Assembly: GCA_963969365.1 (NCBI GenBank)
Contig: OZ017762.1
Location: forward strand, 1,550,001 to 1,614,000
DNA: 64,000 nt
Origin: Asterochloris sp. CNOR1
Taxonomy: Eukaryota; Chlorophyta; Trebouxiophyceae; Trebouxiales; Trebouxiaceae
Reading direction: 5' to 3'
The position numbers and the translations under genes were made by a program. Positions 1 to 64,000 of this stretch are shown piece after piece. The stretch's first letter is position 1, and every line of letters starts with the position of its first letter. The notes below the pieces were generated by a model. That model did not search any database and had not been told where the DNA came from. It saw only the letters and a program-made list of their open reading frames with translations.

Positions 1-3000
1 GTGCTACAGCAGGAGCCTCACTTCTGCAGCCTGCCAGGGGATAAGTGGGGCCTGGCAGCCTTCCAGCCGCTGCGTTGGGGGTTTGCAGGTAAGCACAAGC
101 GTGAAGTGGCTAGCGCTGATATGTGTTCTTGTTGAGCCTGCCAATTGGCAGCGACAGCAGTTAGTTTCCAGGCTGAAGCAGGAGCATGTTATAAGTACTG
201 TAGCTGTGCTCAGTCTGGCACAGTGGCTGGGCAGGCGTGTCTGCAGAGCGCTGCGGCTGGGCTGCCTCCACAATGGTACAGCTGGCATCACTAGTAGACA
301 GGCGTGGTCACATCCTGACCTGCACTCAGGTACCACCCTGGCTAGGCCATGCCCATCACGGGGAAAGTCAGGGCTCAAGCTGATCTTGATGGGTGGTTGC
401 AGTCACCCTGGATCTGGTCGCAAGTGCCTTCACAGGGCTGCAGCCAGAGTGCCGACACAGCAGTGACCACAGCTGGTAGAGTGGCTCCACAGTGGTGATG
501 TGCTGTGCAGGTGCACTGTCTCTGGCATCCTGGCCAGCCTGCAGAAAACTCCCATGCTGTCTGACATGCAGGGACTGCAACAGAGAGGTGCCAGAGTGCG
601 CACAGCTGTTGCAACATGCCCGTCCTCATGCATGAGTGCGCTGTGACTGTGCAGGCACTGGCTTGATCGCAGAGGACTTCATTGAGGCACTGTCCCTGGT
701 GCCTGGGGCCCAGCTGGCAGCGGTTGCAGCAAGAAATCCGGAGCGTGTGTCAGCTGCACAAAAATTTGCAGACATGCACGGTGAGCGACCCTCTCACTGC
801 TGATCAGGGTGTTCTGTATGCACAAGCACGACCATCAAAAACTTGCAGAACCCATGCTCTGCAGACCTGCCTAATGAGAAGCTATCATGTCACTGTACGG
901 GCAGGCCGTATACTGGACCAGCCTGCATGAATTCAGCAGTGTTTGCAAAACGGTCGTCAGGCAGCAGGGTCAGGCTCTCGTGGATCTAAGGGTGCTGCCA
1001 GGTTGATCCACATTGCGTTAGGCTTTGAGCTATGCAGGCAGAAGTGCTGACCGTGTTGCTAAGTCCTGCTGTGCCTGGCTCAGGGGCAACAATCATGCTT
1101 CATTGTACTTCACCTCCCCCCCAGCGCTTCAGTGTAGACTCCCCTGTGGGGAGCACATGCAGCCATGATGCTAGCCAGGCGCCTTTCATCTCCTACCCTG
1201 CAGGCACAAGCAAAGCTATGCAGCCATGTGCACTGAAAGTAGGGCTGCTGGTGCTGCTATGGAGAGCATGGCTCTGCCCTTTACTCAACGGTACTCAACC
1301 TGTGTTCTGCAGGCGTGAAGCAAGTTCTGGGCAGCTACGAGGAGCTAGCTCAGAGCCCGGCAGTGGACGTCGTGTACGTCAGCAACATCCACACCCTGCA
1401 CAAGGAGACAGTGCTGCTCATGCTGCGGCACGGCAAGCATGTGCTGTGCGAGAAGCCTCTGGCGGTGCGCTGCTGCAGACAAGTCTGCTGGCGAGGGTGT
1501 CACACTACCACAAGGAATGTGCTGCGTGTTTGAAGCACAGGAAGCATGTGCTGTGCGAGAAAGCTCTGGCTGTGAATTGTGTCAACAGGGCATCTGTGTT
1601 GAACAGAGCAATTACGATGGAATTGGACGGCCAAGATGAGTGCAGCACCCTGTGCAAGGATGCTGTGCTGCTCAGGCTGCAGCAGGGGAAGCAAATGCAC
1701 TGCAGATCAGTCTGCTGGCCCTGGTGTCTGTGCAGCATTACACTGCTTGTGCTGCGGCTGCAAGAAGGCTGTGGCAGTGAGCTTTCATGCAGCAGCGGTG
1801 GAGAGTGGCAGCTGGTCGCACTGCCAGTCCACAGCCGGTGGTCGCCTTGGCTAGAGGTCTGCTGGCTTGGCCTGCACGGTGTGAATGGCATGCTGGGTGA
1901 GGTTGACCTGTGGCCTGAGTCGTAGAGTGGCCTGGGCCATGCAGGTCAACGCTGCAGACACCCAAAGCATGGTGGACGCGGCTGCTCAGAGCGGCCTTTT
2001 CTTCGCTGCGGGGCTGTGGACACGCTTCTTTCCGGCCACCCAGATGTGAGTGCTCCATGGCGGCACCTGCTGCACACTGGGCCTGGGCAGGCATTCCGCA
2101 TTACCTGCCTCTTGGTGTCTTGCAGACTGCGCCAACTGATCGCACAGGGCATCATCGGCAAAGATCAGCACTTTGGCGCCCGCACTCCGTCTCACTTGGC
2201 AGGGCGCCAATCACGGAGGTCCTGACATGCTTGTGTTCATTGAAGAGGCTGTGCTAGCTGATCGCCAGTGCACCATCTGGGGAGGCCCTGCACTTCACTT
2301 GGGCAGCTGCACCGCAGGCTGTGGCACCTCACTTGGCAGGTTAGCAACCAAGAGGTGCTGACATGTTCATAGTCTTGCAGGCTGCGCCAGCTGATTGCTC
2401 AGGGAACCATTGGGGAGGTGCAACACTTCCAAGGGACCTTTGTGGCCCACATTGGTGAGGAGACATCAAGGCTCTATAACCTCAACTTGGGTGGTGGAGC
2501 TCTGCTGGACATTGGGGTGAGCAGTGGTGTTTTGCAGATGTGCACAGTGATCTTCTGCAGAAAGCCCTGCAAGGCGGAGTGGTGAGTCAACTGCAAGATC
2601 CTGTGGGCTGGAGGAGCTTTGCTGGACACTGGGATGAGTTGTGGTGCTTTGCGCACAATCATCTGCTGCTTGTAAGTAGCTGCCTGCCCATGATGATGAT
2701 TGGGTTGTGGGGCTCAAGTGCACTCTGCGGTCACCGGGATTACCCAGTGCAGGCGCAGGACATTGCTGTAGGAGGGCTCAACCTTGCTTGACGTGCAGTG
2801 AACCCCTGTCCATCTTTGGCCCTGCCAGAGCTGCCTCTGTGATAGAGGACGATCCAGGGGGCTGAACTGGGAGCGGCGCTCAGTATTTGCAAGAGCCGTG
2901 CTTGATGTAGGCCTACATGTTGACCTGCTGGAAATCTGTCAGGCACAGAGGCCTGCTGAGTTACAGGGCTGCAGCAACACTGCTCCAGCAGGGCCAGGAG

Positions 3001-5982: not shown

Positions 5983-6005
5983 GGCACTTTGCTGGTGTCA
6001 TTGCC

Positions 6006-6011: not shown

Positions 6012-6043
6012 GCGTTACGCTTTGGCGCCAAGCTTTGATGATC

Positions 6044-6070
6044 CATCATCATCATCATCATCATCATCAT
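6044..6070. repeat. (CAT)9 microsatellite
   Basis: Nine perfect CAT units in the short gap between the oxidoreductase and DCP1. The run is flanked on both sides by GATGATC (from 6037 and from 6072), so the block could fold back on itself. It is non-coding in the models given here. Confidence 0.95.
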
Positions 6071-6217
6071 CGATGATCCAGCGATGTCCATCATGCACGA
6101 AGGTCAAGCACTTTGTTGCGGAACATAGAGAACGGGAAGCCCCGGAACCTGGGCTGATTTTCTAAGCTGCCGCGTCAAAGCGCTCTTCCTTTCTTTCTTT
6201 TCTCCATAGCAATCAAC

Positions 6218-9200
6218 ATGGCCATGCCAAACTTGAGCGAGAAACAGACCAGGCAGATCAACCTCAACGTGCTAAAGAGGGTAGATCCTGATACAGAGGA
6301 GGTCAGTGGGCTGCTTCCCCTCCTTTGAGAGACATGCTGGCTGACTGTAGTGGTCTTCTGCTCACTCGACTGCATCAGCTGGCGTTTGGCCTTCCGTTAC
6401 CATCACCAGTAATTTGGGCTCAGACCCAGGCCAACACCAAGTGTCACGTGCGGCCCAGCAAGATCTGCATCTGCCTCACACCTAAGCTCTGAGACCATGG
6501 CTGCAGGTGCTGGCCAGCGCAAAGCATGTGGTGTTGTATGACTTCCAGGAGGGGCAGTGGGTGAGCTGTTGGATGCCTATGATCCTGGCACAAGTGTAGT
6601 TGTCTTTCTCAGCTGATCAGCTGGCCAGGCCAATCAACGTGGGCACATCAACCACCCAGCAACTGGGCTTCCGACCTCTGCTGCGTCTCAGCTGCCCGCT
6701 GCCCTGAGCAAGTCTGCAGCAGTGACCGAGTTCACCTTTGTGCTGGCGCCTGGGGCGCCACACAGCCTAGGTGAGGTTTTGGCAGCCATGTCAACTCATT
6801 TTCATGCTTGGAATGCAGCGGCGCAAGGATGTAGAGGGGTCCATGTTTCTGATACAGCGGCGCTCAAGTCCTCTGTTTCAGATCGTCATCCTGAATAAGA
6901 AGAGCCAAGGTCAGCTCGCCATCGACGCTTGCTGCATGGTCCTGAGACTTTGGGCAGGCAGCCCACAGGGGGCAGCCAAGCGTGCTGCGCTGGCTGCCCT
7001 GCCCACAGGAAGCAACTTAGCACGCCGCGCTGGCTACTGGGCGCTGCTGCAGGACTACATGCCACCGTCACTGCTCATGCTGAGGGCAAGGTGTGCTGCC
7101 TGCTGGCAGCCAATGGGGGGTGTGGCCAGCACGCTGCTTCAGCTGCAGAGTGCCCTTGCATAACTGCAATCTGGTGCTACCCTGACTGCTCCATGAGCTT
7201 GCCAAGGGCGACCTGAGCAGCTACAGTAAAGTAGGCTGCTGTGGTATTGCTGCTCAGGGAGGCTGCCAACAGCTCTTGTTATTACTGACGTGCCTTCTGC
7301 ACATGGTGGCACTGGATGCAGGCAGGCCCTTCAGGCTGAGACGGCTGCAGAGCCCTGCTTCTGCAGCGATGTGATGCATCTCATTGATTGGACTAGTATG
7401 GCTGCCAGCCAACACATCAGTCCACCAACAGGGATGTCAACAGAGGGAGGACCGAGCAGCATCTCTTCCTCCTTTGCTTGAGACACTTTGAGGCTGCGCC
7501 ACTCTCCCCTGCAGACAACTTTGTGGAGGATCTGACAGACAGCTTCAAATTTGAGATCTCTGGTGACTACCTGCTCTACAACAACAAGCATGGCAAGGTG
7601 CGGTCTGTCTCATCTTGATGAGTTGCTTCCGTGTCGGTGATCTTGCAGGAAAGTGCACATACCATGCTTGCAAAGTGGGAAGTGCCCTCTGGGCTCAGTG
7701 TCTGCCTACCTCTGGGTCTTTGGCACATCACCCTGCAATGTGATGGCCCTCCAAAGACTGGGCTTCGCCTACATAGGGCTTGCTTGTTCCTGTCCTGGCA
7801 CCACACGTCATGATAGAGCAAGCCACTGCGCGTGTACAACTTGGGATGTTGCTTGTAGATTGTGAGCACTGCCCGTGTACAATATGGCATGTTGCTTTTA
7901 GCATCGTGTCGGTGTCACCACCAAATCCTAACACCCCTGTGTCACGCATATGTACAGGCTGTGAGTACATCATACTGCGAGCAGTACTTTGCAACATCCT
8001 GCCCCCACCACTTCCCCCATTTGGCAGCTTATTTTGCCGAGTCTCGTCCATTATGTTGCCCCTGACAAATGTTCCACGTTGCCCACAGATTGTGGGGGTC
8101 TGGTTTTGTGAGCAGGGGGAGCTGCAGCAGATGGACGCCATGCTGGGACGCATCTTTGAGATGCACCCCAGCTTTGAGGCCAGCCGCAGTGGACGTGTGG
8201 GCATGGGAGCAAGCTCTTCAGCCGGTGCTGCTGCAGGGGCGCAAAGGCAACAGGTGGGGTTGGGTCCCTACCTGTGCGGTTTGCAATTCAAGATCCACCC
8301 AGCCCACTGCCTGAGAGCCATGTATGGCGCAGGCTTTCAAAAGCTTCTGTGCAGTTGCGGGGCCGCTACTTTTGTATTGCATAGCTGCCTGCAATTGTTG
8401 CCTACTCTTGTGCAGGATGCCAGCAGCCTCAGCAGCCCACTGCCTGGGAGCCAACCATGGAGCGCGCAATTTGGAAGCTTCCCAGCAGCAGAAGGGCTAC
8501 CAGGCAATGGGTTTGGGACGCCAGCTGCCACACCTGCGCGGGCTGCAGCGCCGCAGTCAACACAGGGAAGCACGCCGTTTGGACTTGTGGGTCTCTTGGG
8601 GCAGCAGCCAGGAGGGGGGAGGGGCGGGGTTGGTGGGGCGGCCAGCACTCCTCCACAGCAGGGCACGCCCCAGCACAGCACACCTCAGCAGGGGACCCCT
8701 ACAGGTGCGTCGGGGTGACACTTGGGTAAAGCACCATGTGACGCATGCTCCCTCGGTCACCCTTCTAATTGCAGTCTGGCTGCACGAACACCTTGGTTGG
8801 GCAGACCCACTGCTTGCATGCAAGGACAACAGCTTGCACCCGCTGTTCAGCATCATGAAGTACTCATCAGATCTTGACTTCCACATGCTCCACTGCTTGC
8901 AGGCAGGGACAACAGCCTGCACCTGCTGTTCAGCAACATGAAGTATGCAAGCTTGGTGGAGAGTGGGTCGCCCGGAGCGGTGCAGACACCCCCACCTGCA
9001 GCTCCCCCTGCTGTGCCAGCAGCGGCGGACTCCCAAACGAGGCCGCTCCTGCTGCCCCCAGCCTTCTTCCAGGGCAAGACGCCCGGAGGCCAGGTGAGGT
9101 TGTTGGTGTACTGGGTTGCAACAGTCCTCCATTCAGAGAAATGGACGTGCAAGGGAGTGGGCTCTCTCAGCGGGCCTGCACACCTGCAATGTCTTGGCGT

Positions 9201-11983
9201 GCCACGCCTTGAATAACTGCTCGGGTCATGGCAGGGGCACCACCTGTGTTGTTGGGAAGCACATGAGATGTGGGACAGCAAGCTGGGGAACCACCCCTGC
9301 ATGTGGGGAATATTCCTGCTGGCATGCTGCACTCTGCTGTACTGGCTGCATGAGAGCCTGCCACAGGCATGCGCAGATCCTCCCTGTCGTGCTCCAAGCG
9401 CTTGTGCAGCGTGCCTGCACCCCGTCGTTCCCTGTAGGTGCGCCCAGCTGCATACTGCCTGAGCCCACCACCCGCAGCCAGCCCCAGCGACCTGACCACT
9501 CCCCACTCGGCAGACCCGAGCAGTGTGGCCAGCAACACAGCCACAGCTGTGAACCCGAGTTCCACCCAGTCCAGGGCTCTGCTGGCAGACACCCTCCACT
9601 TAGCAGACTTGATCCGCAGCACCCCCATGGCAGGGGCCACCTCCACATCGGCAGACCTGAGCACACCCTTGGCAGCGCCCACAGCCGTCCCTGCTTCTGG
9701 ACAGCGCAGGGCGCTGTTGGCAGCTCAGCTGCCCAGCCCCTCTGCCCTGGGCAGCGCCTGGGGGCGCTCCTTATCAGATGCTTCTCCCGTGGGTGACCTG
9801 CTGAGCCCTGCTGCGCTGCTCAGCACAGCTGGGCCTGTCGCATTGATGAGTAAGGGCCGCCCATCGCCACCTCCTGCAAGCAGCCTGGCTGCCACAGCTG
9901 GTGCAAGAGCAGCGGCCCCTCCCCACCCCAAGGCCACAGGTCTGCCTGATGGTGTGGAGACCCGTGGCAGTGAGTCCATTGCCCTGGCAGCCGCTGCTGC
10001 TGCTCCCAGCTCCCCTCCCGGGCTGGCCACAGCCGGGAGCGCGCCTGCCCAGCTGGGCCAGCCAGGCAGTGCGCTGTCTGTGGCTGCTGGGCCTGCTGAA
10101 CTGGCTGCTGCCGTCAGCTTCCCTGCCGGCCGCATGGAGGCGCCTGCTGACCTAACGTCTGCCATCAGCACTCCTGCCGACTTGGCAGCTGCCCTCGGCG
10201 CTTCTGATCCCCCAGCATCTGCTTTCAGCACTCCTGCTGGCCACGTGAAGTCAGCTGCCTGGTTGGCTGCCCCTGTCGACTCCTGCAAGAGTGCAAAGGG
10301 GGAGTCTGCAGGCTGCTGGGCGGTCACAGGGCCTCAGTGGGTGCCCAGCCCTGGTCAAGCCTCTCATGTCTCCAGCACCCCCAGCCCACCCTCTGGCAAT
10401 CCTGGCCAGCCCTTCCCAGAAGGCAGCACCTCTTGCTTAAAAGTGAGGCCAAGCTGCATGTGAATAGGTTCACTGTCCACAAACATGGGCCAGCTGCACA
10501 GAAGCATCTCTCTCTGCTAATTCACATGTCCCTCCTGAGGGCGGTGCGTCCTGCATGAAAGGGAGCCTCTATTGCAGGGGCGCAGACCATGCACGCTGCA
10601 GTCCGGGCTGCTCCCCCCTTCCCCCGCCCCCAACCCCAAGAAACATCATCGCGCTGGTGTGCCTTGCGGCAAGGCAGCCCCTACAGCATGGCGAGGGGGC
10701 CGCAGCCAGTTGCTGGAGGTGGCATGCAGTTCCAGGATACCCCCCTGGTGGTCCATAGCTTGATGCACCAAGTCCAGGAGGACTATGTTCTGTGCTTCAA
10801 GGCTGGTGCCGAGTGCTGGGTTTTGGAGCATGCTGTACGACTGGGGACCCTCAATCCTGTGTTTCGAAATTTTGACATCAATTCCCCAGAGTTTGGACAC
10901 TGTGTCTGAAAAGAACTTGCTGTGCAAGCTGTTTGCATTCTGGTGGCTGCAGGACACTCCTGGCGGTCCTGGCAGCCCCTCCCAGCCGCAGCAGGCTCAG
11001 CGGCGAGAAAGCAGTGATCAATTCAGGAGTCTGCTGGCTAGGTGGGTTAGCTTGGGTTGCATGGAGTTTGGCCTTGGCCTAGTTCGCCAGCTGCCACCAG
11101 TGGGAGCAGCTTGAAATGCTAGGTGCTTGGGTTGACTGCTGCGGGGGGACCTTCCAACTCTCAGATGACTGCTGATTCTGCTGAGGGCAGCGTGTTCGCA
11201 CAGCATTCACTGCACAGCAGCCTCCTGGTGTCCTTGATCTGCGTACTGGATGCTGCAGTGTGGGGGCCTGGCGGGGAGAAGTTGAGTTGACTCGTGCCGC
11301 CTGGCAGGTCGCCGTTGCTTTGGTGCAGTTAACGCTGTGCCTGCCGGGCATGGGTTTGACTTCTCAGGTCTCCAGAGCCGCTGCCAGCTTCAGCGCTGCA
11401 GGTGGTTCACTCCAGGAGAATATTTCCACCACAAGTGGCCAAGCTGGTTGGTGTACCTGCAGGGCGTCTTCCAGTACCCAGGAGGCACAGGGGCAGCCGC
11501 CGCCGCCAGCAGCTATACCAGGGCACTCCAAGAGCAGTGCATCCAGCACTTGCGCAGGCCCCAGTGCTGCTGTACTTGCAAATGGCAGCCATCCGCATGG
11601 GCCTGCCCCCGCGCCACAAGGGCAGGTGGGCCAGCATGTGCTCGCGGGGCATGCCGCCTATTAGTGGCAGCCTGACCTGCCTGCCCAGACTGCCAGCGCA
11701 GGCCGTGAAGGCCTAGGGGTCTTGGTCACACCTGTGCAGATGATTGCCGATGCCAACCAGCGAAGTGGCTGTGCCTGGAAACGGCCGCTGCTGCATGCAA
11801 GCACCTTCACAAGGCTTCACACTTGCATCGACAATGTTGCTGCAGGGTCAGTGGCAGCAGTCTGGTATACAAGCAGGAAGGACGCGGGATAGTGTGCGAG
11901 CAGCTCTTCTAAGTCTGGCGCAGTCTGATGCTTTTGTGGACATCATTGTGGAACACCTGCAGCGACAAGACCTGAAGATGTAG
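6218..11983 (+). CDS. DCP1: mRNA-decapping enzyme subunit DCP1
   Basis: Activator subunit of the DCP1-DCP2 decapping complex, which removes the 5' cap before mRNA decay in cytoplasmic P-bodies. The EVH1-like domain is spread over exons 6218..6301 (starts MAMPNLSEKQTRQINLNVLK), 6507..6560 (VLASAKHVVLYDFQEGQW), 6819..6909 (RRKDVEGSMFLIQRR), 7515..7597 (DNFVEDLTDSFKFEISGDY) and 8089..8253 (IVGVWFCEQGELQQMDAM); these match the family block by block. Exons 8416..8704 and 8903..9093 continue in phase as Pro/Ser/Gln-rich sequence. A single exon 9438..10442 adds 335 codons of Ala/Pro/Ser linker. Exons from about 10570 to 11780 are less sure. The last exon, ending at the TAG at 11981..11983, carries the C-terminal trimerisation helix (RDSVRAALLSLAQSDAFVD). 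The unstructured linker is much longer than usual. The 8705..8902 intron holds a copy of the next exon start. Confidence 0.88.
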
Positions 11984-17585: not shown

Positions 17586-17612
17586 ACATTCACAGGTTGT
17601 GTTTATGGACAA

Positions 17613-27584: not shown

Positions 27585-27971
27585 TGCAGTTGTTTAAACC
27601 GTCTGATAAGCAAGAGGGAATTCGCTTGCTGGTGTCCTGACAGGCTTTAAGTACCCTGGGCAATCAGGAGGTCTCCCAAGTTGCAGATCTGCCCGGTCAA
27701 CCAGAAAGAGAGCTAGAATGAAAATGACACAGACTTGTCGTCAGAGTTGTCGACATCTCTGGTTGTAGGCAGATTGATCTTTCCTCTGTGCAGACCAAGG
27801 TTGCATGTACGCAAAGCAAGCAGATGTGTTGATACAGCACACATGCAGAGCAGTCTCCCAATTGCTGGGCTGCAAACGCTGCAGACCGCTTCCAGGACCT
27901 CACCAGTCTGCAAGAGAACAGTCTGCACAGGGCTGCAAGAGGCAGCGCCTGGCTGCAGGGCGCAAGCAGTC
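27585..27971. promoter_or_regulatory. Shared divergent promoter region
   Basis: About 387 bp separate the RPA1 start codon (minus strand) from the first plausible ATG of the next gene (plus strand). Both promoters must lie here or inside 5' UTR introns. I see no TATA box or named element that I would defend. Confidence 0.4.
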
Positions 27972-50000: not shown

Positions 50001-50789
50001 GTAATGTCCTTTGTCCTTGCTGCATGGACCCAAGGCAAGCTTACCAGATGGAGCGCTCCTCATTCTCTGGTGTGTCCACAGGCAGTGTGAACTTGTAGAA
50101 CGGCCTCAGCTGGCGAAACATCAGCACCTGGCACCCGCCAGCGACTGCCAGGACTGGAACGCGTGGCTGCTGTGAGTCTGGGTAAAAGCTGGCAGCTGCA
50201 CTTGGCAGCGTGGGCAGCTGCAGCTCAGCTGCCATCTGAATGCCCTTGTAAACCTGCAAGCAGACCAGGCTTGCTCACACATGGCGATGTCGACAGCTAC
50301 ACCTCGGCAACAGCCTGAACCTCTGTGCACACCTGCAGGCAGCCAGGCAGGTTGGAAGCAGCAAAAGTCTGTGCTGCTGAAATGATGTGCTGTGCCATGC
50401 CAACTTGCAGAAGCTGTTGCTGACTGACCATCGGCTGGGCAAACAGGCAGTGGACAGTACGTAGAGATGCAGCAGACAGTGCCACCAGTGACTATATGTG
50501 CCATGGCCCAGCATACCTTCAGCTGCTGGCTCAGGTCTGCCACTGCAAGGCGCCAGTCGCCATCGCCATACAGGTTGCAGGTCTGCATATGCCCTGTGAA
50601 GGCATTGAGGCCTGCCACAGGATCGAAGTGAGCATTCAGCCATGTCTGGGACTGGGCAGGATCAGCGGCAGTGCTGCCAGCTAGCTGTGCCTGTGCTGTG
50701 GCTTCCTGCTTTGGCCGCTGTAGGTCTGTTTCCTCTTCGGGTACGCTAGAAGGCTGCTTCTTGAGCAGACCTCCCAGCTTGCCCAGCAT
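44001..50789 (-). CDS. BBS1: Bardet-Biedl syndrome 1 protein (BBS1), BBSome subunit
   Basis: Subunit of the BBSome, the coat that moves membrane proteins in and out of cilia with IFT trains. Eleven exons join in phase to 614 residues, close to the usual about 600: 50517..50789, 50045..50253, 49372..49591, 48825..48951, 48435..48532, 47822..48014, 46957..47082, 45760..45887, 45068..45181, 44466..44594, 44001..44228. The N-terminal beta-propeller shows WLNAHFDPVAGLNAF, LYGDGDWRLAVADL, FRQLRPFYKFTLP, EDAVGCLLLGTEDGRLLVLDP, HLIAIATRNNKVVLMKNGEG and SLVVGCLNSSLHSYSLKGK, all in family order. The C-terminal part has the coiled region (EREKANAVEMHNTFQQELMK) and the GAE-like domain (LQMHAAVAGLGPAFKIKLML). 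It starts 267 bp from a divergent plus-strand gene. Several introns carry arrays of exon-edge copies. Confidence 0.95.
46460..46960 (-). repeat. Decayed copies of a BBS1 exon end and its intron start
   Basis: The end of exon 46957..47082 (TTKMPSPVGAMVFGRYGREE...) with its donor and about 50 bp of intron recurs at about 46735..46860, reading TTKVFLPVGACWLFWVRGAR and followed by a matching gtgtgcctgctg. Shorter copies lie at about 46600..46660 and 46460..46490. Decay grows with distance from the exon. Confidence 0.8.
48015..48380 (-). repeat. Array of exon-start copies upstream of a BBS1 propeller exon
   Basis: Immediately upstream of exon 47822..48014, at least three and probably four further copies of its first about 90 bases lie head to tail, at about 48015..48110, 48111..48200, 48205..48303 and (weak) 48305..48380. 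Each ends in or near ctgcag. The copy near 48303 stays open and reads LLSTVSALVVRCVKSSLHSF; the real exon reads LVCTARSLVVGCLNSSLHSY. Confidence 0.9.
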
Positions 50790-53820: not shown

Positions 53821-55799
53821 TCAGAGGCGGTTTTTGCGTACACGACACTTCTCAGCATCTATGATGGCTGCCAGCTGTGCAACTGTCTGTTCCAGCTTGC
53901 CATCCCTGTTGACCACGACTGCAGCAGAGACAAGGGAGACTTGTCTTGCGAGTCAATACAGTGTTTGTTGGGCCACCCCATCGGTGACTGCAAGCTCTGG
54001 CAGTATCATGCAGACAGCTGCAGCTCCTTTGCGAGCAGATCAGAAACACAATTGCGGGCAGCGTCAAGGTAAAGCATCTGCATGCGGCATGATGCAGGCC
54101 TCACCATAATCAAATTCATGAGTGCGGGCCAGTTCGTCTCTGGCCGTTTGCACTCGGGTCAGCAGGGTTTCCTGCAATCATGTCTGCCAATGAGACTCAC
54201 ACCAGCATTTAAGCACGCAGAGGCCATATTTGAAGCCCATTGCAGCACTTTTCAGCCATGGAAAGGCATCAACAACAATAGCAATGCTAAAGCATGTAGA
54301 GCACGCTGCTCTCATTGCACCTGCCAAGCAGTCCATAAGGAGGCCCTAGCTCTTGAGGTTGCAAAAAGCATTGCCAGAGCCTGCCAAGGCAGACATGCTC
54401 TCACCGGACTCTCAGTTTTCCTTGCGACTAGGCGGTGCCCAAGCTGATGCTCGGACTCAGCCACCTGCAAATAGGCACAGTGGTAGTGACGACAGAGAGC
54501 AGTGGCTGGCTGAAGAGGCTTCAGGGCGCCCAGGCTCTGAACTCAGCCAAGCCCCGCTCCTGCCAGGCCAGTGGGCAGACATGGATAGATGGGGGTTTTT
54601 GGCCCCATGCTCTGACTGTTTCAGCTGCTCAAGGAACTGGTGATAAGCAACAAGGGGTGCAGCCAACCGCATATGCCCTGTGGCTGTCTGAAGGCAGGCA
54701 GCAAGCAGCCAGCTTCGCCACAAGGCAGGCTGCGGCTGGCGCTGCCCAGTCAGAAGCCAGTCAACAACACGCCTTACCAGGAAGATTGTGACAGCTGCAG
54801 GCATCAGCTTTCGGACAGTGGCTGCCCCTTGCACATCGATGCGCAGCACCACGTCAGTTCCTCGCTGCAAGGCGGTGGTGACCTGCTGCTTGGGGATGCC
54901 CTTGTACTCCCCATACACGGTGGCGTGCTCCAGCAGCTGACCCTGGTCGATCCAGGACTCAAACTCCCCCCTGCTAACAAAGATATAGTCGACGCCATGC
55001 ACCTCGCCCCTCCGCTTGGCTCTGTAGAGCACTGAGAACACAACCCTTCAGAGGGGGAATCTCACTGACAGCTCCCTGTCAGCCTTCCAGAGGTGCGGCT
55101 GTTGCTGCCTGCATATTGAGCACTATTCGGCACCCAGCCACAGCCTTATGTGCAACAGCTGCTGTCTTAGCAATAAGATTGACCTTGGGTGTAAGCTGCC
55201 TGCAGGACTCCTCAGCAGACCATGCTTGCATACAGCAAACTGGTGATACAGTAGGCACTGGCCACAGCAGAAGCAACACAAGGCATGTGCCGGCGCACAT
55301 CAAGCAGAAGCGTTGCCTGCTCTACCCCATGTGGAGGTGGCCAGGACTACCAATCTTTGAGCTCATTGTAGCCCACGGCAAACAGGACACGACAAGCAGA
55401 ACACAACAGGTGGAACACAGTGCCCATCTGGCCGCCAGCCTGCCTTTCGTCACCTGGAGGTGGCTGTGACCACAAAGTGCAGGTCTGGCCGCACTGACTG
55501 CAGCCTCTTGATCACAGCGTCCTTGCCAACGCCACTGGGGCCGCTGATGACAGCCAGCACAGACTGCTGTGCAGGCACCTACATTGCAAAAGAGACCTGA
55601 GGAAGGCCACTTGTGAGAGCAGAGCGACGCACGATCGCTGCCTTTCAGTAGGTACAAATCGGTCCGAGACGGACTCCAGAGCGAAGCAGGACTGGACCAA
55701 CTTGAAGTTGTAAATACATGCCACCTCGTGGGGCTGCCTTACTGTGGGTGCAGTGGACAAGTTCCGGAGCACCTCTTGAAGGGCGCTGCTGCCAGCCAT
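53821..55799 (-). CDS. GMK: Guanylate kinase (GMP kinase), plant type
   Basis: Phosphorylates GMP/dGMP to GDP/dGDP with ATP. Six exons join in phase to 245 residues: 55656..55799, 55454..55578, 54778..55021, 54405..54464, 54105..54171, 53821..53918. The P-loop [15 protein letters not shown] follows a 58-residue N-terminal part. Then come the GMP-binding region ([34 protein letters not shown]), the core strand [18 protein letters not shown], the lid ([20 protein letters not shown]) and the end [20 protein letters not shown]. In phase [10 protein letters not shown] and the GVGKD form of the P-loop match plant enzymes, including plastid or mitochondrial ones. The frame stays open upstream of the chosen ATG after a good acceptor, so a longer N terminus, possibly a transit peptide encoded around 55800..56330, cannot be excluded. 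Confidence 0.93.
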
Positions 55800-56621
55800 G
55801 TCGCTGTCTGAGGGCGCTGCTCGCAGGGGTGCCTCCTGCAGGACACACAGGCCAGGTGAGCCACCCTGTGCCAGGCTTGGGACTGCAGGTGCAGCTCCTG
55901 TGCACTCTTAGGCAATGCTGAGAGAGAGTCAGCTGGTCTGCATACATTGCCCTGCCCTTGTCACATGGTGAAGGCCAAATCTTGTATCTCAGGGTCCAGC
56001 AGGGGTCTCAGATAAGCAGGGTTGCGCCCCACGAGAGGCAGCCCCAGAACGGTGCAGCGGTGAGTCATGCATACAACACTACTTGGAGGCCTATGCATTG
56101 TCACCTGCAGGGCTGAGTGCTGCGCTTGGCAGCAGGTCTGTCTGCTCCTCTGGAGCTGAAAGCTGCGCTGGGGGATGTGCTGCTGCAACCTGGCGAGCCA
56201 CATGCCAATCTGAGGCTGTGCATGAAAGCTGAGATTGCACAGCCTGGAACATGTGTGCTGGCCGACAAGAGCTGCCTGTTCCCATGCACAGATGGGCATT
56301 GCCAGGGGCATCAACGTGGGCACCACACAATCCTGCCGGACGCTACAAGAGTTGGCAAACTGGGTGTATGGTTGTTGCTATGTCAGCCAGCTGGAGCCTC
56401 AGGTTGATCAGGAGGCAACTGACTGGTCAACAGGTCAACCTGTTTACTCCCGAACCCAAGCCAGCTGTTCCTTGACAGCATTGGCGATCGTAGGCGCCAC
56501 ACAGCTGCCAGCGCTTTCTGGCGAGGACATGGGTGTTGGTGTGCGGCCCAGGCACTGCTGAACCCACCAGCGGAACGAGCTACAGTCTATCTGCCAATCC
56601 CCAGATATCCGAAGATTCAAC
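55800..56621. promoter_or_regulatory. Divergent intergenic region between guanylate kinase and CEP76
   Basis: About 820 bp between the two start codons. It must hold both promoters and may hold an upstream exon of guanylate kinase. A minus-strand open stretch ending at 55961 (GLPLVGRNPAYLRPLLDP) looks partly coding-like, but I cannot attach it to a gene. No defended promoter motif. Confidence 0.4.
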
Positions 56622-59600
56622 ATGAGCAATGGCAGCTCTGCTGGAGATAACAGCACAGGCATTCCACCAGAGAAGCTGTCAGAGCTCAGGCAAGGGCGCT
56701 AGCTGCATGCTGGCTTTGCATGGGTGCCCTATATGGCAGCAGCTGCGTTTTCAGACACAGTTATCCCACGTGCCACCTCTGGCTGCCTGTGAGTCATGTC
56801 TTGTCTACCACGTCTACTGGCTACCATATGATGCCTGCCTGCCGTCTGGCATGCATAGTGCTGAGACAGCCTCACAGCAACAAGAGATGGGCAGTGCCAC
56901 AGTGGTGGCGGTGCAGGTTTGGTGGGGGACAGCATGGTGCTGCCTGCATGCTGTCCCCAAGTGACTTCTGCAGCTGACATGCAGCATGGCCTCCCATATA
57001 GTCACTGCCATCTTGTGTTCAGGACGTGCAGGCCAAAGCCGACTCACAGCCATGCCCTGTTACCAGGTCTCTGCTTTGAATCTGGAGCACTGCAGGCAGG
57101 TAGACAACAAGCGGCTGAACCGTCTGGGAGTAAGTGTCCAGCCTATGCCTCTACTTGGGACCTGAAAGCAACGCACAGTCCTGCGCCTTTCTGCTGTGCA
57201 GGAAGGCAGTCAAGGAGCAGCTGAACACGCTGGGAGTGAACACCCAGATCAAGGCTTTGATCAAGGAGGGGAAGCAGGGCGCGCAGAAGGGGCCCTCTGG
57301 CAAGGGGTCTGGCTTCACCAAGGAGCAGGCTATAGAGGAGCTCAAGGTGTGTGCCTGCATGGGGCTCGCATGTGTCGCTTGCAGCTTAGCTTCACTAAGG
57401 AGCAGGCTGGCTTCACTAAGGGGCAGGCTAATGAGGCTGGCTTCACCAAGGAGCAGGCTATCGAGTAGCTCAAAGTGTGTGCCTGCATGGGGGTTGCACC
57501 TGCCATTTGCAGCTATGTAATGCTTCCCAGGCTGCAGTTAGGACCAGACCATGGAGGAATGCAAGGTGTGCGCCTACATGCAGTTTCCTGATGCAATCAT
57601 GAATTGCACAGTGCTGTCCAGCCTTCATCAGGGATCTCAGGGTGTGTGCATCCACGCAGTTTAAGCATGCAGTCCAAGCATGCTGTCTTGAGCCACACAC
57701 TGCTGTCCAGGCCTGACCAAGAGCGGGCCCAGTGAGGACCTGAAGGTGCTGGCTTGCTGTGAGGGATTCACGACCTGTGCTGGGTAATGCAGTGCTATTC
57801 ATGCATGTGTTGACAAACAAAACAAGCTCAGACTGCTTGCTGTGGGTGTGACGGGGCCGTTACAGGTCATGCTTGTCTAGACGCAACACTGCAGCACAGT
57901 CAGTGCATTAGACAGGGCATGCCAGACAACAACGTCTGGATGGTCTGTAGGCAGCACCAGGCGGCCTCTGCAACCCACGCATGGCTGAATGAGGGAATGT
58001 CTGGGCTAAGCGACTGCAACAGAGCTGCTGGTTTGCTTGCCTCAGCTCTGCAGGAGGCTGTTGCACACGACACCGGCTCCTGTCCAAGCTGATCCTGACA
58101 GTCTCTGCTGCTGCAGGGGCATGGCATTACTGGTGAGCAGGTCAACTTGCTCAGCCATACATGGGGCCATGTCTGCTACTGCTGCAGGAGTGTGCTGTCT
58201 CTGGCATGGGTCTGCTCTAAGTCATCTTTCACTGTCCTGGTGGCTGAGGGAGACTGGCAGACGTGCACATCCCCAGCTGCTCGCATGTTCCCAGAGGCAA
58301 CATTGTGTTTGCAGGGGCGTGGCGTCATCGATGAGCTGGTCAAGTCGCTCAGCCACACAGGGCAGCACCTGACCGCTGGAAAGCACCAGGCAGGCCCCTT
58401 TGTGCAGAGGTGAGTGGCAGCTGGCCTCCCTGAAGGGGGGCACATTGCTTCTTGCATAAAGGCGCCTTTGAGCAGCCACGAAGCACAGCCATGAGTCTGT
58501 GTTTTACCTATGCTTCTGTCCAACGGTTAGACCCAGGCAGCTGACAAACTATGAAGCACTTGCACTGGGTCCTGATGGCACCACCCTTTACACATCATTA
58601 CAGACACATACACTATTTGGCCATCACTGCATCGGTCGCCAGAAAGCCAACTCATCCCTTGATGTGGCTGCAGTCGCAACAAGCGATACCTGCACGTGCG
58701 CCTCAGGGGGGGCAATCGCTTCCTGCGCTACAGCGGGCGCCAGCCGCCCCCAGGGGAGCAGCTGGTTTGCTGTGGGGAGCTGCTTGGACAGCGCTTCAGG
58801 TGAGCAACACCATGGTGGTACAGCCTTGACACCAGGCACTGCCTGCTGCATGGCAGACTTTTTTTGTTGGGGTGGAGAGCTGGTGGGCAGCAATCTAGGT
58901 CACCACACAGCAAAATGTTCATTGTCCAGCCAGAAATCACATTGGTACTGCTTGCATTTTGTAAAGTGAAGGCGTTATGCTGTTGGGCCGCTGGTCTGCG
59001 GTGGGGAGCTGGTGGGGCAGGTCAGGTGAGCACACAGCAAAAGATTTGCAGTCACAAAGTTACACAGGTACTGCTTGCTGCGTGGCACCTTCTAATGTGT
59101 GGTGGTTGTCTCAGGCAGGCCCGGAGTGACAGCTGGTGCACTGCTGGGAGCTGCTTGGGCAGCAAAGTGCAAACATGGCAGCGTCAGTTCCTGGGCACCC
59201 TTGACCCTGCACAGGCACTGCCATGGCCATCTTCACCGTCAGGCCAGGGTTGACAGCTTGGCTGTCGTGAAAAGCTGCCCAGGCAGTGTCTCAGATGAAC
59301 ACACAGACAATTTGTAGTGGTGCAGCTTCAACCCACACAAGCGCTGGCCCTGCTGTGTGGCAGATCCTGCTGTTTGGCCAGGTGTGTGCAGTGCTGTGGG
59401 GAACTGCTGAGGCTGTGTTACAAGTCAACATACACAGCATCCAGATCTGCTAGCACAGCTGTGGAGACAGGCGTGCACTGCCCTCTGCGGCACAGATGGG
59501 GGTCCTTGTGCAGCACACTGTGCAGTGCTCCAGGTGGCACACTGTGGGTGCCCCTGACTGCTGCCTGGGCATGCTAGAGGGTGCTGTGCCTGCTGGCGCA

Positions 59601-62600
59601 ATGACTCATCAGTATCAACGCGTTCTGTGGCCGCATCAGCACTGTAGGATCCAAGCACAAGCAATGCCCCTGTGCAGGTCTGCGCCTGCTGCTGGTGGAG
59701 CAGCTCCTCGCCTGGAGGCATCGGCGCTGATTGAGCTCCCCGGCAGCAGCACGGCAGACCCAGTGACCCTCATCAGTCAGCGGCAGGCCCTGCACCTTGT
59801 GGTCATCAGGCTGCAGCCACCAGCAGGGAATCTGGAGCACGTCGCCAGCGGCAGCAGCTCCGCATCAGGTGCGCGTGAGTCCTGCCGCAGCATCTGTGCA
59901 GCAGGAAAATGTTGTTATGCTGAGCTGTTGAGAAGCAGGGATTGGGGCACCGACCCCGCAGCCAGTCTCCAGTGGGGCCCCCTACCCTTGCTGTGTCCAT
60001 TTGCTGCGCTGCACTGCCACCCTGCGCGCAACTGCTGCCCAGCCCCTGCGGGGCTCAGGGCTGCGACCCTGCAGCCGGTCACCAAAGGGGTATAGGTGCT
60101 GCTTGCTGCTGCCCACTGCCCTGGACTGCCCAGCTGACGTGCCACCCAGCGACGTGTAGGGGACTGGGCGCCGACTCACTAGCCAGCCTACATTGGGACC
60201 ATTGCCCTTTTTCTGTTCATGCACAGCCACCCACTCAGCGACTGCTGCCCAGACCCTGCAGGGAACGGGGCGTCAGCACAGCAGCCAGCCACCAACGGGG
60301 CTGCAGCCCCTGCTGCTTCTGGCACACAGCAGCGCCACAGCCCGCCTGGACCCACAGCTGTACCCGCCGTCAGTGGCACCAGCGGCACTGCCACGCCTAC
60401 CCACCCCCGCCACAGCCCTCCGGGGCAGCAGCCTCTGCTGGCAGCTGCGCTGGCAGCTGGGCCCCAGCACCAGCAGCAGCAGCTCAACGCGGAGCTGCAA
60501 GTGGGTGCTGGGACGCTTGAGTGTGTCCTTGTCGGTGCTGGGCGAGACATGAACGCCAGCAGGGGCCAGCCTGCACGATGGGGTGGTGTGCCTGTGCACA
60601 TGCTGCCCGGCAACCACGGCAAGCACTAACGGCCTTGTGCGGTCCTGGGCAGCTGAACCCCAGGGTTAAAGGCCAGGATCAGTGATCCTGACTTGGGCCA
60701 CATTGCACAACATTGGCCTCCCTGCCACCTGCAGGTGCTGCACAGCCCTGGGGAGGTGGTCGGCACCTGCAGTCTGGACTGGCGCAAGGCGCTGATCAGT
60801 CAGGGGCAGCCGGCGGTGCTGACGGGGGAGCTGCTGCTGGGCAGCCAGAGCGGGCAGCGGGGGCTGGACATGGTCGGCGTGCTGTCCCTTGAAGTCGAGG
60901 TGGGCTCCTCGTCTCAGATCGTGTCACCAAGTGATGGGAAGCTGGCTAGGAGGGTGTTCAGCCTGTCACCTCTGCCCAGCACCAGCGCCTGTGGGCCTGT
61001 GGGGGGCAAGCGCAGGGTGGGGAGGGCACAGAGCTGCTGCTGGGGCGTCAAGATCGGGCAGCAGGGACTTGAGACGGTCATTGTGGTGTCTCTTGGACTC
61101 ACAGGTGTCTCGTGAGTTCAAGGGGCATCATGCAATGCAGATCAAGGGTTGGGGCTTCGCCAGGGTTGTGCTGGGGAGTCAGAGCAGGCAGCGGGTCATT
61201 GACATTGTTGGCATGCTGTCACTCCACCATCTCAGCTGGGACAGCCTTCAAGCAGACCTGAGAGGTTTGTGTGCAGGTGGTCCCCTCGCTGAGCAAGCCG
61301 CTGGACCAGGCAGCCCTGGCGCGCCAATGCGAGGCGGAGGGGCAGAGGGACAGCGAGGCCACTGCCTTCACTGCCAGGGCACGGGAGTGGTGGGCGGAGT
61401 ACACAGCTGGAGGGCTGGACTTCCAGAGCCGCGTGGTCAAGCTGCTGGCCTATGCAGAGGATGGCATGCAGGTGGGCACATCGCAGGGCTGAAGGCACCG
61501 GGCAAGCTGCAATGGGATGTGGCGGAGATGGTTCTCACACTGTCAGAGCTCATGCACCAGACTGTGACGGCCGACAGGCAACGCTGCTGGTTTGTGCAGA
61601 GGACGCCATGCAGTGCAGGGTCAACCTGGGCTGCCTCCTGATTGCAGGCTGCAAGCACAGGCAGGTGCTTGGCTGCAGGCAGCACCAGATGTTCTGGTCA
61701 GCGTTTGCCCTTGTGAGATGGAACACGCGTCTTGATCGAGCTCATACACAAGGCCAGTGATAGTTTGTCCTGCCTGCAGAAGCCCACATGTGCCTTCGTC
61801 AAGCCCCTGCAGCTTGGGCGCTGGCTGGCCACCCCAAGGGAGGCAGCGCGATTCGTGAGCCTGCTGCAGCCCAAGGAGGGGGCGGCCCAGAAGCTGTCCA
61901 CAGCCTCCCCTGCAGAGAGCTGGGCGGCACTGCACACTGTCATCGAGTCGCGGCAGGCTTCGCAGGTGCGCCTGCTCTGGAGCAGCCACAGCTTCTGAGA
62001 GGGGCATTGTATCGCATCTGGCCTGCACGAGGAGAGGGCCCTGCTGATGTGCAGCCTTCACTCCAGTCTCAGCTGAGCAGATCAGCCCCATTGAGCGACC
62101 TTGTGGACCCTGATCAAAGTCCTGAAGCTGCGTTTCCCGCCCACTGCTTGCAGGAGGGGAGTGGTTGCTGTTGTGTGGGCTGCTCCCGGCTTCATTTCAG
62201 CTTGCCGCTGCCCAGTGTTCACTGCCCTTCCCCTGCCTGCAGGAGGAGAGAGCCCTGCTGCTGTGTGGCCTGCTCCTGGGGTTTGGGCTGGATGCATGGG
62301 TCTGCTGCGGCACGAGCGAGCGCGGCGGGCACATGTGGGTGCTGACACGGTCTGCCAGGAACAATGCAACCTTCTGGGAGCCTGTCACAGGTCAGTGTGC
62401 CGTGTGTCAGGTCATGCCTGCTCCTAGACTGATAAAAGTTGGTCTGTGTGGGATGAAGGCAGCCTTTCAGGGCCTTTCGTCATGTGTATGTGGGTATGGC
62501 AGCAGCAGGGCCGAGGATGTGCATGCCAACTGGTTGATGCCTCGGCTGCGCGCACAGCACTGCACCATGCCCATGCTCCATGCCTGCACAGCAACAGCTG

Positions 62601-63566
62601 GCCCAAAGCATCTGGCTCCACCTCACGTGTGCCAGTGCCGATGCCTGGGCTCTGTGTTCAAGCCTCCAGGACCAGCCCTGAAGCCAATTGCTTTGCACGT
62701 GTGGGTAGCTGGTGATGCATACCAAGAGGCATTACTTGTCTGTGTAAAATAATTTTTGTTAAGCCTGAACTTTCTGCAGGCCAGCGATGCGTTTTGTTAT
62801 TGAAACTTCTGAACTTCTGCCTGCAGGGCAGTGATGCATTCTGTTGCTATAACCTCTGCACTTCTGCCTGCAGGGCAGCGATACAGCCCAGGGTCCCCTG
62901 GCCAGCCCAAATCGTGCCAGTGCCGCCGCCTGGGCTCCGTGTTCCAGCACCGGCGCGTCCTGGCCAACTGCCAGCGTGACGACAGTGTACTATCAGTGTG
63001 CTACAATTTTGAGGACAGCTCCCTCTGGAAGGAGCTGACTGTACAATCGCAGGATGTGTGTGGGCCCCCCTGGGTCCGATTTGACCTTCAGGTGGGGTGA
63101 CCCAACATTCTGCAGGTGCAGGCTGTGGGCTGAAGAGTTGCAGGCAGTTTGTGAGGGCCACAATGCGACCATGACATCGGCTTGGTCTTGGGTGGTGACA
63201 ATCAGCATTCCCAGGTTGTGAGTAGCGTTGCAGAGTGTGGACATCTTTGGGGCTGAGCTGTATGTTGGGGAGGAACTCAACACATGGCTTTCAACTGCAG
63301 ATGCTCCCACTGGATATTCCTGTGGCCGAGCACAGGCTAGAGGCAGACCTTCGAAAGTCGCTGACCGAGCACCGAGCGGAGGTTCTGGGCATTCCAGCGA
63401 CGCAGTGGGACGAGGGACTGGCCTTCCTGCTCATGCCAGCCCTGGCCTCATACGAAGCTGAGGCTGTCACAGGGCAGCCGGCGGCTGGGACGGAGGACTT
63501 TCAGCAGAGCATCAAGCGCAGCACGCCGGCAGGGTCAACATTCAAGGGTGTGCCTCAGCACCACAG
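56622..63566 (+). CDS. CEP76: Centrosomal protein CEP76 (3' partial)
   Basis: Centriole-associated protein; in animals it limits centriole reduplication. Twelve exons join in phase: 56622..56689, 57202..57346, 58315..58409, 58674..58799, 59678..59868, 60262..60500, 60735..60899, 61277..61471, 61780..61965, 62243..62390, 62874..63091, 63301..63566, about 680 residues so far. Start GIPPEKLSELRKAVKEQL and then RGVIDELVKSL match the family N terminus. The C2-like domain runs from RYLHVRLRGGNRFLRY through QRFRSAPAAGG, SLDWRKALISQGQ and LDMVGVLSLEVE. Next are AREWWAEYTAGG, FVKPLQLGRWLATPREAARF, the transglutaminase-like fold (LLLCGLLLGFGLDAWVCCG, GHMWVLTR, ATFWEPVTGQRY), GSVFQHRRVLANCQ and WDEGLAFLLMPALASYE. 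Exon 60262..60500 adds about 70 residues of Ala/Pro/Gln/His-rich insert. The first intron has a GC donor (gcaagg). The last exons lie beyond the window. Nearly every intron carries exon-edge copies. Confidence 0.95.
57320..57760 (+). repeat. Decaying copies of a CEP76 exon end plus donor
   Basis: The end of exon 57202..57346 (GFTKEQAIEELK plus gtgtgtgcctgcatg) recurs after 57380. The core ttcac(t/c)aaggagcaggct appears at about 57391, 57411 and 57441, and the gtgtgtgcctgcat intron start at about 57475. Weaker copies follow at about 57540..57580, 57625..57655 and 57735..57755. The best copy has GAG TAG where the exon has GAG GAG. Confidence 0.85.
58115..58370 (+). repeat. Decayed copy of a CEP76 exon start
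   Basis: The start of exon 58315..58409 (GRGVIDELVKSLSHTG) has a diverged copy at about 58117..58166, preceded by its own ctgctgcag. Conserved blocks are cag-gggc-tggc and gctcagccacac/gctcagccatac. Confidence 0.8.
58766..59445 (+). repeat. Array of five copies of a CEP76 exon end plus donor
   Basis: The end of exon 58674..58799 (CCGELLGQRFR, donor gtgagc, then a short intron part with cacacagcaaa in the copies) recurs at about 58870..58915, 58985..59045, 59135..59175, 59265..59315 and 59385..59440, a spacing of about 110-150 bp. Each keeps the ctg-tggggagctg core; decay increases away from the exon. Confidence 0.85.
59936..60300 (+). repeat. Array of decayed copies upstream of CEP76 exon 60262..60500
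   Basis: The start of exon 60262..60500 (ggaacggggcgtcagcacag...ccaacggggctgcagcccct) is preceded by three diverged copies at about 59937..60000, 60050..60105 and 60158..60212, spaced about 110 bp. Each keeps gg-xxc-gxcgcc/cgac-xx-cagccagxcxxcx-xgggg. Only the last is used as an exon. Confidence 0.75.
60820..61230 (+). repeat. Copies of the end of CEP76 exon 60735..60899
   Basis: The segment coding for ELLLGSQSGQRGLDMVGVLSL recurs in the following intron at about 61030..61100 and 61165..61225. The second copy still reads LGSQSRQRVIDIVGMLSL and is less changed than the first. Confidence 0.85.
62148..62290 (+). repeat. Copy of the start of CEP76 exon 62243..62390
   Basis: The sequence tgcaggagg-ga... 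through tgtggcctgctcc at the exon start has a diverged copy at about 62149..62200, including its own ttgcag acceptor. The two are about 93 bp apart. Confidence 0.8.
62587..62900 (+). repeat. Stacked copies of the start of CEP76 exon 62874..63091
   Basis: A short unit, cttctgcctgcagggcagcgatgc-like, is repeated at about 62776, 62824 and 62871, with period about 48 bp. A longer decayed copy at about 62587..62695 still shows gtgccagtgccgatgcctgggctctgtgtt against the exon's CQCRRLGSVF segment (split here for length). Confidence 0.85.
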
Positions 63567-63860
63567 GTGCGGTTATCATGACGTGCTGCCCATTCTCTGG
63601 GGTGAGGCTGAGAGCTCTCACCCTCTCACTCAAGCAGCAAATGCAGCACGCCTGCAGACCACCGCTCAAGGTTGTGCCCCAGCACTACAAGTGCGTCCAG
63701 AGGGTGGTCAAAGCATCAATCGCAGTATGCTGGTTCCAACATCGAAGGGGCTGCCTGCGCTGCACCACAGCATCTTGAGGGGTTGCATTGACTTGATGAC
63801 AGGTACATGCCGGCAGCCATTGTTGCCAGAAGGGTCGCCCCAGCACCAAAGGTGTGCTTT
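63535..63860 (+). repeat. Copies of the end of the last visible CEP76 exon
   Basis: The exon end TFKGVPQHH plus donor gtgcgg recurs at about 63660..63695 (GCCCCAGCACTACAAG), about 63735..63775 and about 63820..63852, spaced about 80-125 bp, all in the following intron. Confidence 0.75.
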
Positions 63861-64000
63861 AAGTCAAGAGCTGGGATTGCATGAAATGAAAGGGAGGCCT
63901 CCTATAGGTTGGCCTTGATCCTGCTGGTGGCTGACAGGACATAACTCTTGCAGGGCTTCCTTAACGACTGTCTCTCATTGCTGCAGGTCGCTAGCCCCGC

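Follow-up and report, generated by a model that had tools for sequence, protein, structure and literature searches.

In the 64-kb window analysed here, a stretch of 64,000 nucleotides read as a whole (contig C17, 1550001-1614000), introns contain passages that resemble the edge of an adjoining exon, which raises the question of whether introns in this genome are built by a duplication process acting at splice junctions, as a first-pass annotation of the window had proposed. We examined a main sample of 314 kb, consisting of the window and 250 kb from contigs C1-C11, and a hold-out sample of 40 kb from contig C13, all taken from a source genome of 56.4 Mb in 21 contigs.

Exons were predicted purely ab initio by a gene finder that combined codon-periodic Markov chains with splice-site matrices and was trained by the Viterbi method, starting from 14 short peptides (1,731 bases) of the window; 93% of the seed bases were retained, the seeds being training data. 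The gene finder reached a donor consensus CAG|GTGAGC and a very strong acceptor consensus CTGCAG|G, and the gene model used held 825 exons, with a median exon of 95 bp, a median intron of 222 bp and a predicted intergenic share of 5% of the sample. It fuses same-strand neighbouring genes and calls some worn exon copies exons. In introns per gene and in its cilia genes, the genome is similar to what PMC6652019 gives for Asterochloris glomerata. Pfam, run on 10 of the 11 predicted window proteins, matched GFO/IDH/MocA, DCP1, RPA domains, BBS1 together with its GAE domain, guanylate kinase and CEP76; one protein contained three RRMs plus a peptidyl-tRNA hydrolase, indicating that two genes had been merged, and 3 of the 10 proteins submitted gave no match.

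Copies of exon edges in the adjoining introns

Comparing the 60 bp of exon at each edge with the adjoining intron at a match threshold of score ≥28, we found own-intron matches for 54 of the 988 edges in the 314 kb (donor 30/490, acceptor 24/498). The controls gave 8 matches in 9,880 comparisons with foreign introns (donor 6/4,900, acceptor 2/4,980), 3 in 988 with the reverse complement of the own intron (donor 1/490, acceptor 2/498), 1 in 311 with the far edge of exons of at least 150 bp (0/155 and 1/156), and none in 788 when donor edges were set against the second or third intron along. That introns hold local, direct copies of the edges of their adjoining exons is therefore confirmed, and the excess over foreign-intron controls holds across the 314 kb. 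In the window alone, the same threshold gave matches for donor edges in 6 of 105 cases and for acceptor edges in 9 of 104, compared with 0/2,100 and 1/2,080 for foreign introns, and these copies were spread over 8 of the 12 gene units. The earlier count of copies in at least nine of eleven genes agrees with this picture, as 10 of the 12 units carry local pairs at score ≥30, such pairs being absent from units 27718-29223 and 53821-56203. The hold-out sample pointed in the same direction more weakly: 2 of 144 edges matched, against 0/2,880 foreign comparisons and about 8 expected from the first sample, while a threshold of score ≥24 gave 5/144 against 10/2,880. It also contained 22 direct and 3 inverted pairs, and intron middles matched in 1/18 cases (control 2/360).

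The similarity is local and overwhelmingly direct in orientation. When each of the 12 sequences was compared with itself by blastn, lags below 600 at score ≥40 yielded 110 direct pairs, 1 inverted pair and none after shuffling; at score ≥30 the 314 kb gave 250 direct, 13 inverted and 9 shuffled, counted in overlapping 10-kb chunks with the overlaps still included. Dropping repeat listings of one pair and lags below 30 left 238 direct pairs at score ≥30, and local tandem duplication was present in all 12 sequences sampled. An ungapped scan over lags 8-1500 found 300 direct pairs compared with 1 in the complement control and 10 after shuffling. Its lag distribution peaked at 80-130 bp, within the unit range of 50-150 bp proposed earlier, and fell off past 300, with a tail to ~400. 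A minimum unit size of ~60 bp, suggested by blastn, was dropped because shorter lags turned up in the ungapped scan; the apparent floor looks like blastn culling near the main diagonal. Head-to-tail pairs whose aligned length equals the lag are a minority (for example, 121 bp at lag 119 and 100 bp at lag 100), most pairs aligning over only part of the lag, as expected from decay. Unit ends were inspected in eight tandem pairs for microhomology or blunt joins, and divergence was too high to place them.

The copies and arrays in the window are as follows (coordinates, strand, description).

1428-1463, +, donor-side exon edge of the dihydrodiol-dehydrogenase-like gene; intron copy at 1535-1570 (36 bp, 0.89 identity, lag 107)
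1392-1439 / 1646-1693, +, further pair at the 1428-1463 donor edge
2117-2413, +, duplicated acceptor-side exon start of the dihydrodiol-dehydrogenase-like gene (2117-2158 / 2372-2413; 42 bp, 83%, lag 255)
8807-8862, +, intronic copy of 8890-8945 in the DCP1 unit, which comprises an acceptor junction and the start of its exon (56 bp, 91%, lag 83)
19515-19570, -, intronic copy of the RPA1 acceptor-side exon edge 19334-19390 (57 bp, 77%, lag 181)
22105-22310, -, multi-copy tandem array of ~77 bp in the RPA1 gene
24797-24854, -, intronic copy of the RPA1 donor-side exon edge 25182-25239 (58 bp, 81%, lag 385)
25033-25072, -, second copy of the RPA1 donor edge 25182-25239 (lag 175)
29645-29958, +, three-copy tandem array of exon plus donor edge (period ~115-124; 141 bp aligned, 79%)
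33554-33640, -, intronic copy across the donor junction 33666-33752 of the peptidyl-tRNA hydrolase (87 bp, 74%, lag 112; intron-side z=7.6)
34484-34565, -, intronic copy across the donor junction 34631-34713 of the peptidyl-tRNA hydrolase (gapped alignment, z=7.8)
38611-38642, -, intronic copy of the acceptor-side exon edge 38501-38532 of the RRM protein (32 bp, 88%, lag 110)
38802-38857, -, further copy of the RRM-protein acceptor edge
46704-47056, -, tandem duplication in the BBS1 gene (46704-46869 and 46886-47056; 174 bp aligned, 72%, lag 182)
47928-48341, -, multi-copy array in the BBS1 gene (lags 104, 191 and 283)
49041-49066, -, intronic copy of the BBS1 acceptor-side exon edge 48932-48957 (26 bp, 92%, lag 109)
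57309-57514, +, junction-spanning donor-edge duplicate with GTGTGTGCC in both copies (57309-57386 / 57437-57514; 78 bp, 87%, lag 128)
61583-61613, +, intronic copy of the donor-side exon edge 61441-61471 in the CEP76 unit (31 bp, 0.84 identity, lag 142)
62029-62057, +, intronic copy of the acceptor-side exon edge 62243-62271 in the CEP76 unit (29 bp, 0.86 identity, lag 214)

Homologous proteins support three of these edge-copy cases. The alignment of the peptidyl-tRNA hydrolase with CRS2 (1ryb) breaks after ...RYYK and picks up at QVPAEQ..., and the predicted peptide between them, which includes the worn edge copy, has no counterpart in 1ryb. In the dihydrodiol-dehydrogenase-like protein, residues 139-146 of 2o48 match two successive places that correspond to the two exon-start copies. 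The human RPA70 alignment runs across the RPA1 donor that has edge copies at 24797-24854 and 25033-25072, and is interrupted there by only one gap, of one residue, immediately past the junction; it supports the junction, while the copy itself rests on the DNA. Both exon-start copies of the dihydrodiol-dehydrogenase-like gene (2117-2158 and 2372-2413) were called exons by the gene finder. The copy at 34484-34565 was first spotted by eye and is not among the pairs at score ≥30; part of it (34480-34543) was likewise called an exon.

Position of the copies relative to splice junctions

The copies were said to lie always after their exon at donors and always before it at acceptors, and this holds mostly rather than always. 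Among the 238 pairs, a donor fell in the upstream copy only in 34 and in the downstream copy only in 4 (14.5 and 13.3 under random placement), while an acceptor fell in the downstream copy only in 26 and in the upstream copy only in 3 (14.5 and 13.1). Another 46 pairs were mixed, with predicted junctions in both copies or of more than one kind, and 125 had no junction; part of the mixed class consists of copies that the gene finder called exons. With mixed pairs included, the counts were 67 upstream and 22 downstream for donors and 58 downstream and 34 upstream for acceptors, with ~23 expected each. The rule follows because a copy on the wrong side would sit in the exon, so that selection on the protein is enough as its cause.

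We consider it probable that the copies of exon edges were left behind by short tandem duplications of an ordinary kind, which were blind to junctions, were filtered by selection and date mostly from one past episode. On this reading, tandem duplications with units mostly of ~60-180 bp, densest near 100, would have fallen regardless of splice junctions. Those within an exon, or switching the junction in use, would mostly have been lost because they altered the protein. A duplication crossing a donor would have survived if the first donor stayed in use, leaving the second copy in the intron, and one crossing an acceptor if the last acceptor stayed in use, leaving the first copy there; a duplication wholly within an intron would have been free. 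Junction-spanning events would make up a large share of the survivors because introns measure only ~220 bp (model median), and their pairs would remain detectable for longer, since only the intronic copy drifts and the one in the exon is conserved.

The competing proposal, that the event recurs specifically at splice junctions, with the junction or co-transcriptional events there forming a hotspot from which the intron is built out of edges, finds some footing in the data. Junction-bearing copies exceed random placement (34 donors and 26 acceptors, each against 14.5), and at score ≥34 the match rates were 0.037 for donor edges and 0.024 for acceptor edges compared with 0.017 for intron middles. 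At score ≥28, however, the 60-bp middles of introns of at least 360 bp matched the rest of their own intron in 8 of 180 cases (control 1/180), about as often as exon edges did. Nor do copies between noncoding segments crowd near exons: their coverage by distance from the nearest exon was 0.009 at 1-30 bp, 0.018-0.023 at 30-150 bp, 0.036-0.039 at 150-300 bp and 0.022-0.023 at 300-600 bp, with 0 of 510 bases covered beyond, the low value within 30 bp being due in part to the room that a copy needs next to the exon.

Using simulations, we modeled tandem duplications of 105 ± 28 bp that fell with uniform probability on the actual arrangement of exons and introns, with the noncoding DNA shuffled, and rejected exon-altering events; noncoding sequence then drifted neutrally, and exons at one quarter of the neutral rate. 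The simulation was run first on 6 of the 12 sequences and then on all 12. With a single pulse of 250 events per 314 kb at t=0.20, it produced 146 clusters (real 136), with a median best score of 44 and an upper quartile of 56 (real 44 and 54) and scores of at least 100 in 5 (real 7), whereas the same pipeline without duplications produced 14 clusters. The real pairs divide into 63 exon-noncoding, 51 mixed-noncoding and 59 noncoding-noncoding; the simulated split was 48/37/74 at t=0.20, 72/30/65 at t=0.25 with 600 events, and 97/20/28 at t=0.30 with 1,200 events. The other 65 of the 238 real pairs are EE, EM or MM, some of them copies taken for exons by the gene finder. As unit size, indel rate and exon constraint were chosen by hand, the fit speaks for adequacy rather than uniqueness.

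In the model, uniform placement combined with selection on exons would roughly give the observed mix, so that no separate junction rate would be needed; the difference between the real and simulated splits leaves room for a junction preference of up to ~1.7-fold. Real arrays are richer in pairs than simulated ones (238 in 136 clusters compared with 172 in 146), which can be counted in favour of a hotspot; duplications seem to recur at one place more than independent events would. Re-duplication of an already duplicated segment is usual for tandem repeats. With most of the excess at junctions following in the simulation from selection and slower decay, we regard a junction-specific process as rather unlikely. 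The pattern reported at first pass is thus real but was misread as junction-specific, and uniform short tandem duplication seen through selection describes it better; tandem duplication as the likely origin, and the lengthening of introns by fossil exon edges, both stand.

Whether the units span the junction, as also claimed, can be followed in the decay of similarity across it. In the 30 donor matches, identity was ~0.7 on the exon side and dropped to 0.3 within a few bases past the junction. Over the first six intron bases it was still 0.53, which favors spanning, yet deeper homology was found in few copies: intron-side homology (z>2) was kept in 11 of 49 testable copies, 5 of the 54 being too short for the test. 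A first impression of a sharp real boundary at the junction was dropped, as simulated drift yields much the same fall: tandem drift at t=0.2-0.3 gave 0.46-0.54 over intron bases 1-6 and 0.31-0.37 over bases 6-20, where 0.29 was observed. Exon-only pieces ending at the junction would predict 0.26 over the first six bases and were rejected. Direct snippets of 20-60 bp placed anywhere did less well over those bases (0.36-0.45) and equally well over the rest of the profile; the profile alone does not settle that reading, and the full-length tandem pairs argue for tandem duplication for part of the set.

Age of the duplications

The copies are all old, and the data thereby raise a new question, namely what caused this. 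Of the 136 clusters in the 314 kb, 7 reach a score of 100, and none contains a duplicate that is ≥88% identical and near full length (aligned over at least 0.8 of the lag). A simulated pulse at t=0.20 likewise left no near-full-length duplicate at ≥88%, whereas a steady-state simulation of similar density left 18 of 121 and brought 49 of 121 to a score of at least 100. Steady-state ages also failed in earlier, simpler simulations, in which old ages fitted better. The fit suggests an age of ~0.2-0.25 substitutions per site per copy in the model, with almost nothing younger, and most of the duplication input seems to come from one past episode.

Steady and still active short tandem duplication without any pulse is an alternative account: a broad mix of ages would be the default expectation, and short tandem duplications are, according to passages of PMC8355091, a normal class of mutation. 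Given the 49 high-scoring and 18 near-full-length clusters that such input would leave, compared with 7 and 0 in the data, we find it unlikely. Deletion of young copies is not the cause of the deficit, because survival under constant input only falls with age. Copies already diverged at birth were rejected, as wear would then be the same in the exon-side and intron-side parts of a copy, and the observed profiles differ. Collapse of identical tandem copies in the assembly is unlikely to account for the missing young pairs, because the assembly comprises 21 contigs and the 354 kb examined (main sample and hold-out) contain no N.

For the junction-blind duplications preferred here, we tentatively propose, as a possibility short of an even call, a genome-wide and roughly synchronous pulse of ~100-bp tandem duplications that lengthened introns with echoes of exon edges and then nearly stopped. 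Extrapolated from the fitted 250-600 events per 314 kb, such a pulse would total ~45,000-110,000 events in 56 Mb. If true, it would mark a temporary repair defect or a bottleneck fixing slightly harmful insertions, and a single-age pulse would offer a test of intron growth by steady mutation against growth by episodes of failed repair or weak selection.

Fate of the copies and relation to known systems

Do any of the copies serve a purpose, as alternative or mutually exclusive exon ends or as decoy splice sites under selection? GT is still present in 10 of 30 donor copies and AG in 5 of 24 acceptor copies, and some copies are good enough for the gene finder to call them exons. Against this, mismatch rates at codon positions 1, 2 and 3 were 0.145, 0.102 and 0.166, a weak bias in place of the third-position-dominated mismatches expected of mutually exclusive exons; in two decoy cases set against homologues the extra peptide has no separate counterpart; and similarity decays across the junction as under neutral drift. 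Functional copies thus appear very improbable: the copies are not maintained as coding sequence, the copy drifting neutrally. Substitutions in the pairs comprised 125 transitions and 88 transversions, with per-base rates of 0.094 for A>G, 0.093 for T>C, 0.083 for C>T and 0.065 for G>A and a mild CpG excess (21/134 CpG compared with 53/868 non-CpG). Repeat-induced point mutation was rejected, since the spectrum has no strong C-to-T or G-to-A excess.

Intron gain by tandem duplication of exon segments containing AG|GT, each intron being one duplicated segment, would leave an in-register repeat of both intron ends. Among the 571 of 755 introns whose exons were long enough, the upstream exon end was repeated at the 3' end of the intron in three (control 0.0002), and the intron start was repeated at the downstream exon start in none (control 0.0005). 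The three introns with the expected 3' homology are listed here.

L013:5701-5850, upstream-exon-end homology at its own 3' end
L015:8812-8913, upstream-exon-end homology at its own 3' end
L014:7327-7701, upstream-exon-end homology at its own 3' end

Old gains would have faded from this test, and with 3/571 and a reciprocal match of 0/571 such an origin is hardly credible for these introns; as the model fits only the three, the duplications point to intron lengthening and not to intron creation. Least credible of all, to the point of near dismissal, are introner-like mobile elements, whose sharing between unrelated introns was absent when exon edges were compared with foreign introns (8/9,880), and spliced transcripts copied into introns by a cDNA route, since the flanks of copies are unlike the exon across the intron (mean score 11.0, control 12.4); no evidence for either origin was found in the sample.

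For ordinary tandem duplication, the molecular step would most likely start from staggered breaks or paired nicks that are filled in by synthesis and then closed by end joining. Small tandem duplications form in this manner in mouse stem cells, by fill-in and joining of broken ends whose 3' overhangs are complementary, as described in passages of Schimmel et al. 2021 (PMC8355091), which also cite work in rice on natural small tandem duplications and refer to Vaughn and Bennetzen 2014 on short tandem duplications. As far as those passages go, the resemblance is that the copies are direct, adjacent and some tens to a few hundred bases long, whereas the algal copies are old, dense (136 clusters in 314 kb) and seemingly of one period, and the breaks and enzymes behind them are inferred.

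Tandem duplication as a route to intron gain is reviewed in PMC3443670, with Drosophila cases in PMC2891723, to judge from parts of these papers. As the type of Hellsten et al. 2011 and Gao and Lynch 2009 is portrayed in portions of PMC3443670 and PMC4974935, it resembles ours in lying near splice signals and in having copies spliced out, but here existing introns grew, and the copy is of the upstream exon end (donor) or downstream exon start (acceptor), whereas the intron-gain model has a registered repeat of both intron ends. The potato RdRp gene (Ma et al. 2016, PMC4974935) appears, in the text available, to combine both levels of tandem duplication, with an intron-exon structure tandemly duplicated and an 83-bp tandem duplication inside an intron; it is, however, a single young case making a new intron, in contrast to the many old copies and mostly unchanged exons of the alga. 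Titles and abstract openings, with subscription papers mostly outside the search, yielded no report of exon-edge copies filling introns genome-wide.

These observations bear on the source of intron DNA in compact genomes, part of which would be traceable to the adjoining exon, and the exon copy provides a slowly changing reference for dating each duplication event. They also advise caution with gene finders, as worn exon copies can pass as false exons, as they do in the present models. At longer range, the ungapped scan recorded 18 direct pairs at lags of 1000-1500, and matches beyond 12 kb at score ≥40 within the window numbered 3 direct and 1 inverted.

Candidate intron gains and the splice acceptor

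Three introns have a 3' end that resembles the end of their upstream exon, and on this sequence resemblance they are candidates for true gain through tandem duplication (all in the sampled sequences):
L013:5701-5850, intron
L015:8812-8913, intron
L014:7327-7701, intron
One of the three lies inside what looks, by its motif, like a DnaJ domain. Across the window and samples, the acceptor consensus obtained from our ab initio gene finder, CTGCAG|G, is unusually long and strong, with matrix frequencies of 0.91 for T, 0.95 for G, and 0.95 for C in the bases preceding AG.

Further repeats

Several further repeats were recorded in the window and in sampled sequence L019:
Window 6044-6071, (CAT)9 microsatellite, zero mismatches
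Window 10093-10237, imperfect coding repeats (family D3), 34-bp copies spaced 51, 30, and 30
L019:4554-4729, multi-copy minisatellite in noncoding DNA, 70-bp unit, 83% identity
The mismatch-free microsatellite contrasts with the old ~100-bp duplicates. The coding repeats belong to the DCP1 gene unit, where the long exon that carries them is rich in Ala, Ser, and Pro; they are of a different kind from those duplicates. At lags of 1000-1500 bp, the ungapped scan of the samples yielded 18 direct pairs, compared to 0 and 2 in the controls, an excess that the ~100-bp duplications do not explain.

Ciliary and centriolar genes

Two genes in the window suggest that the organism forms cilia or centrioles during some phase of its life:
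Window 44001-50789, BBS1
Window 57551-64000, CEP76
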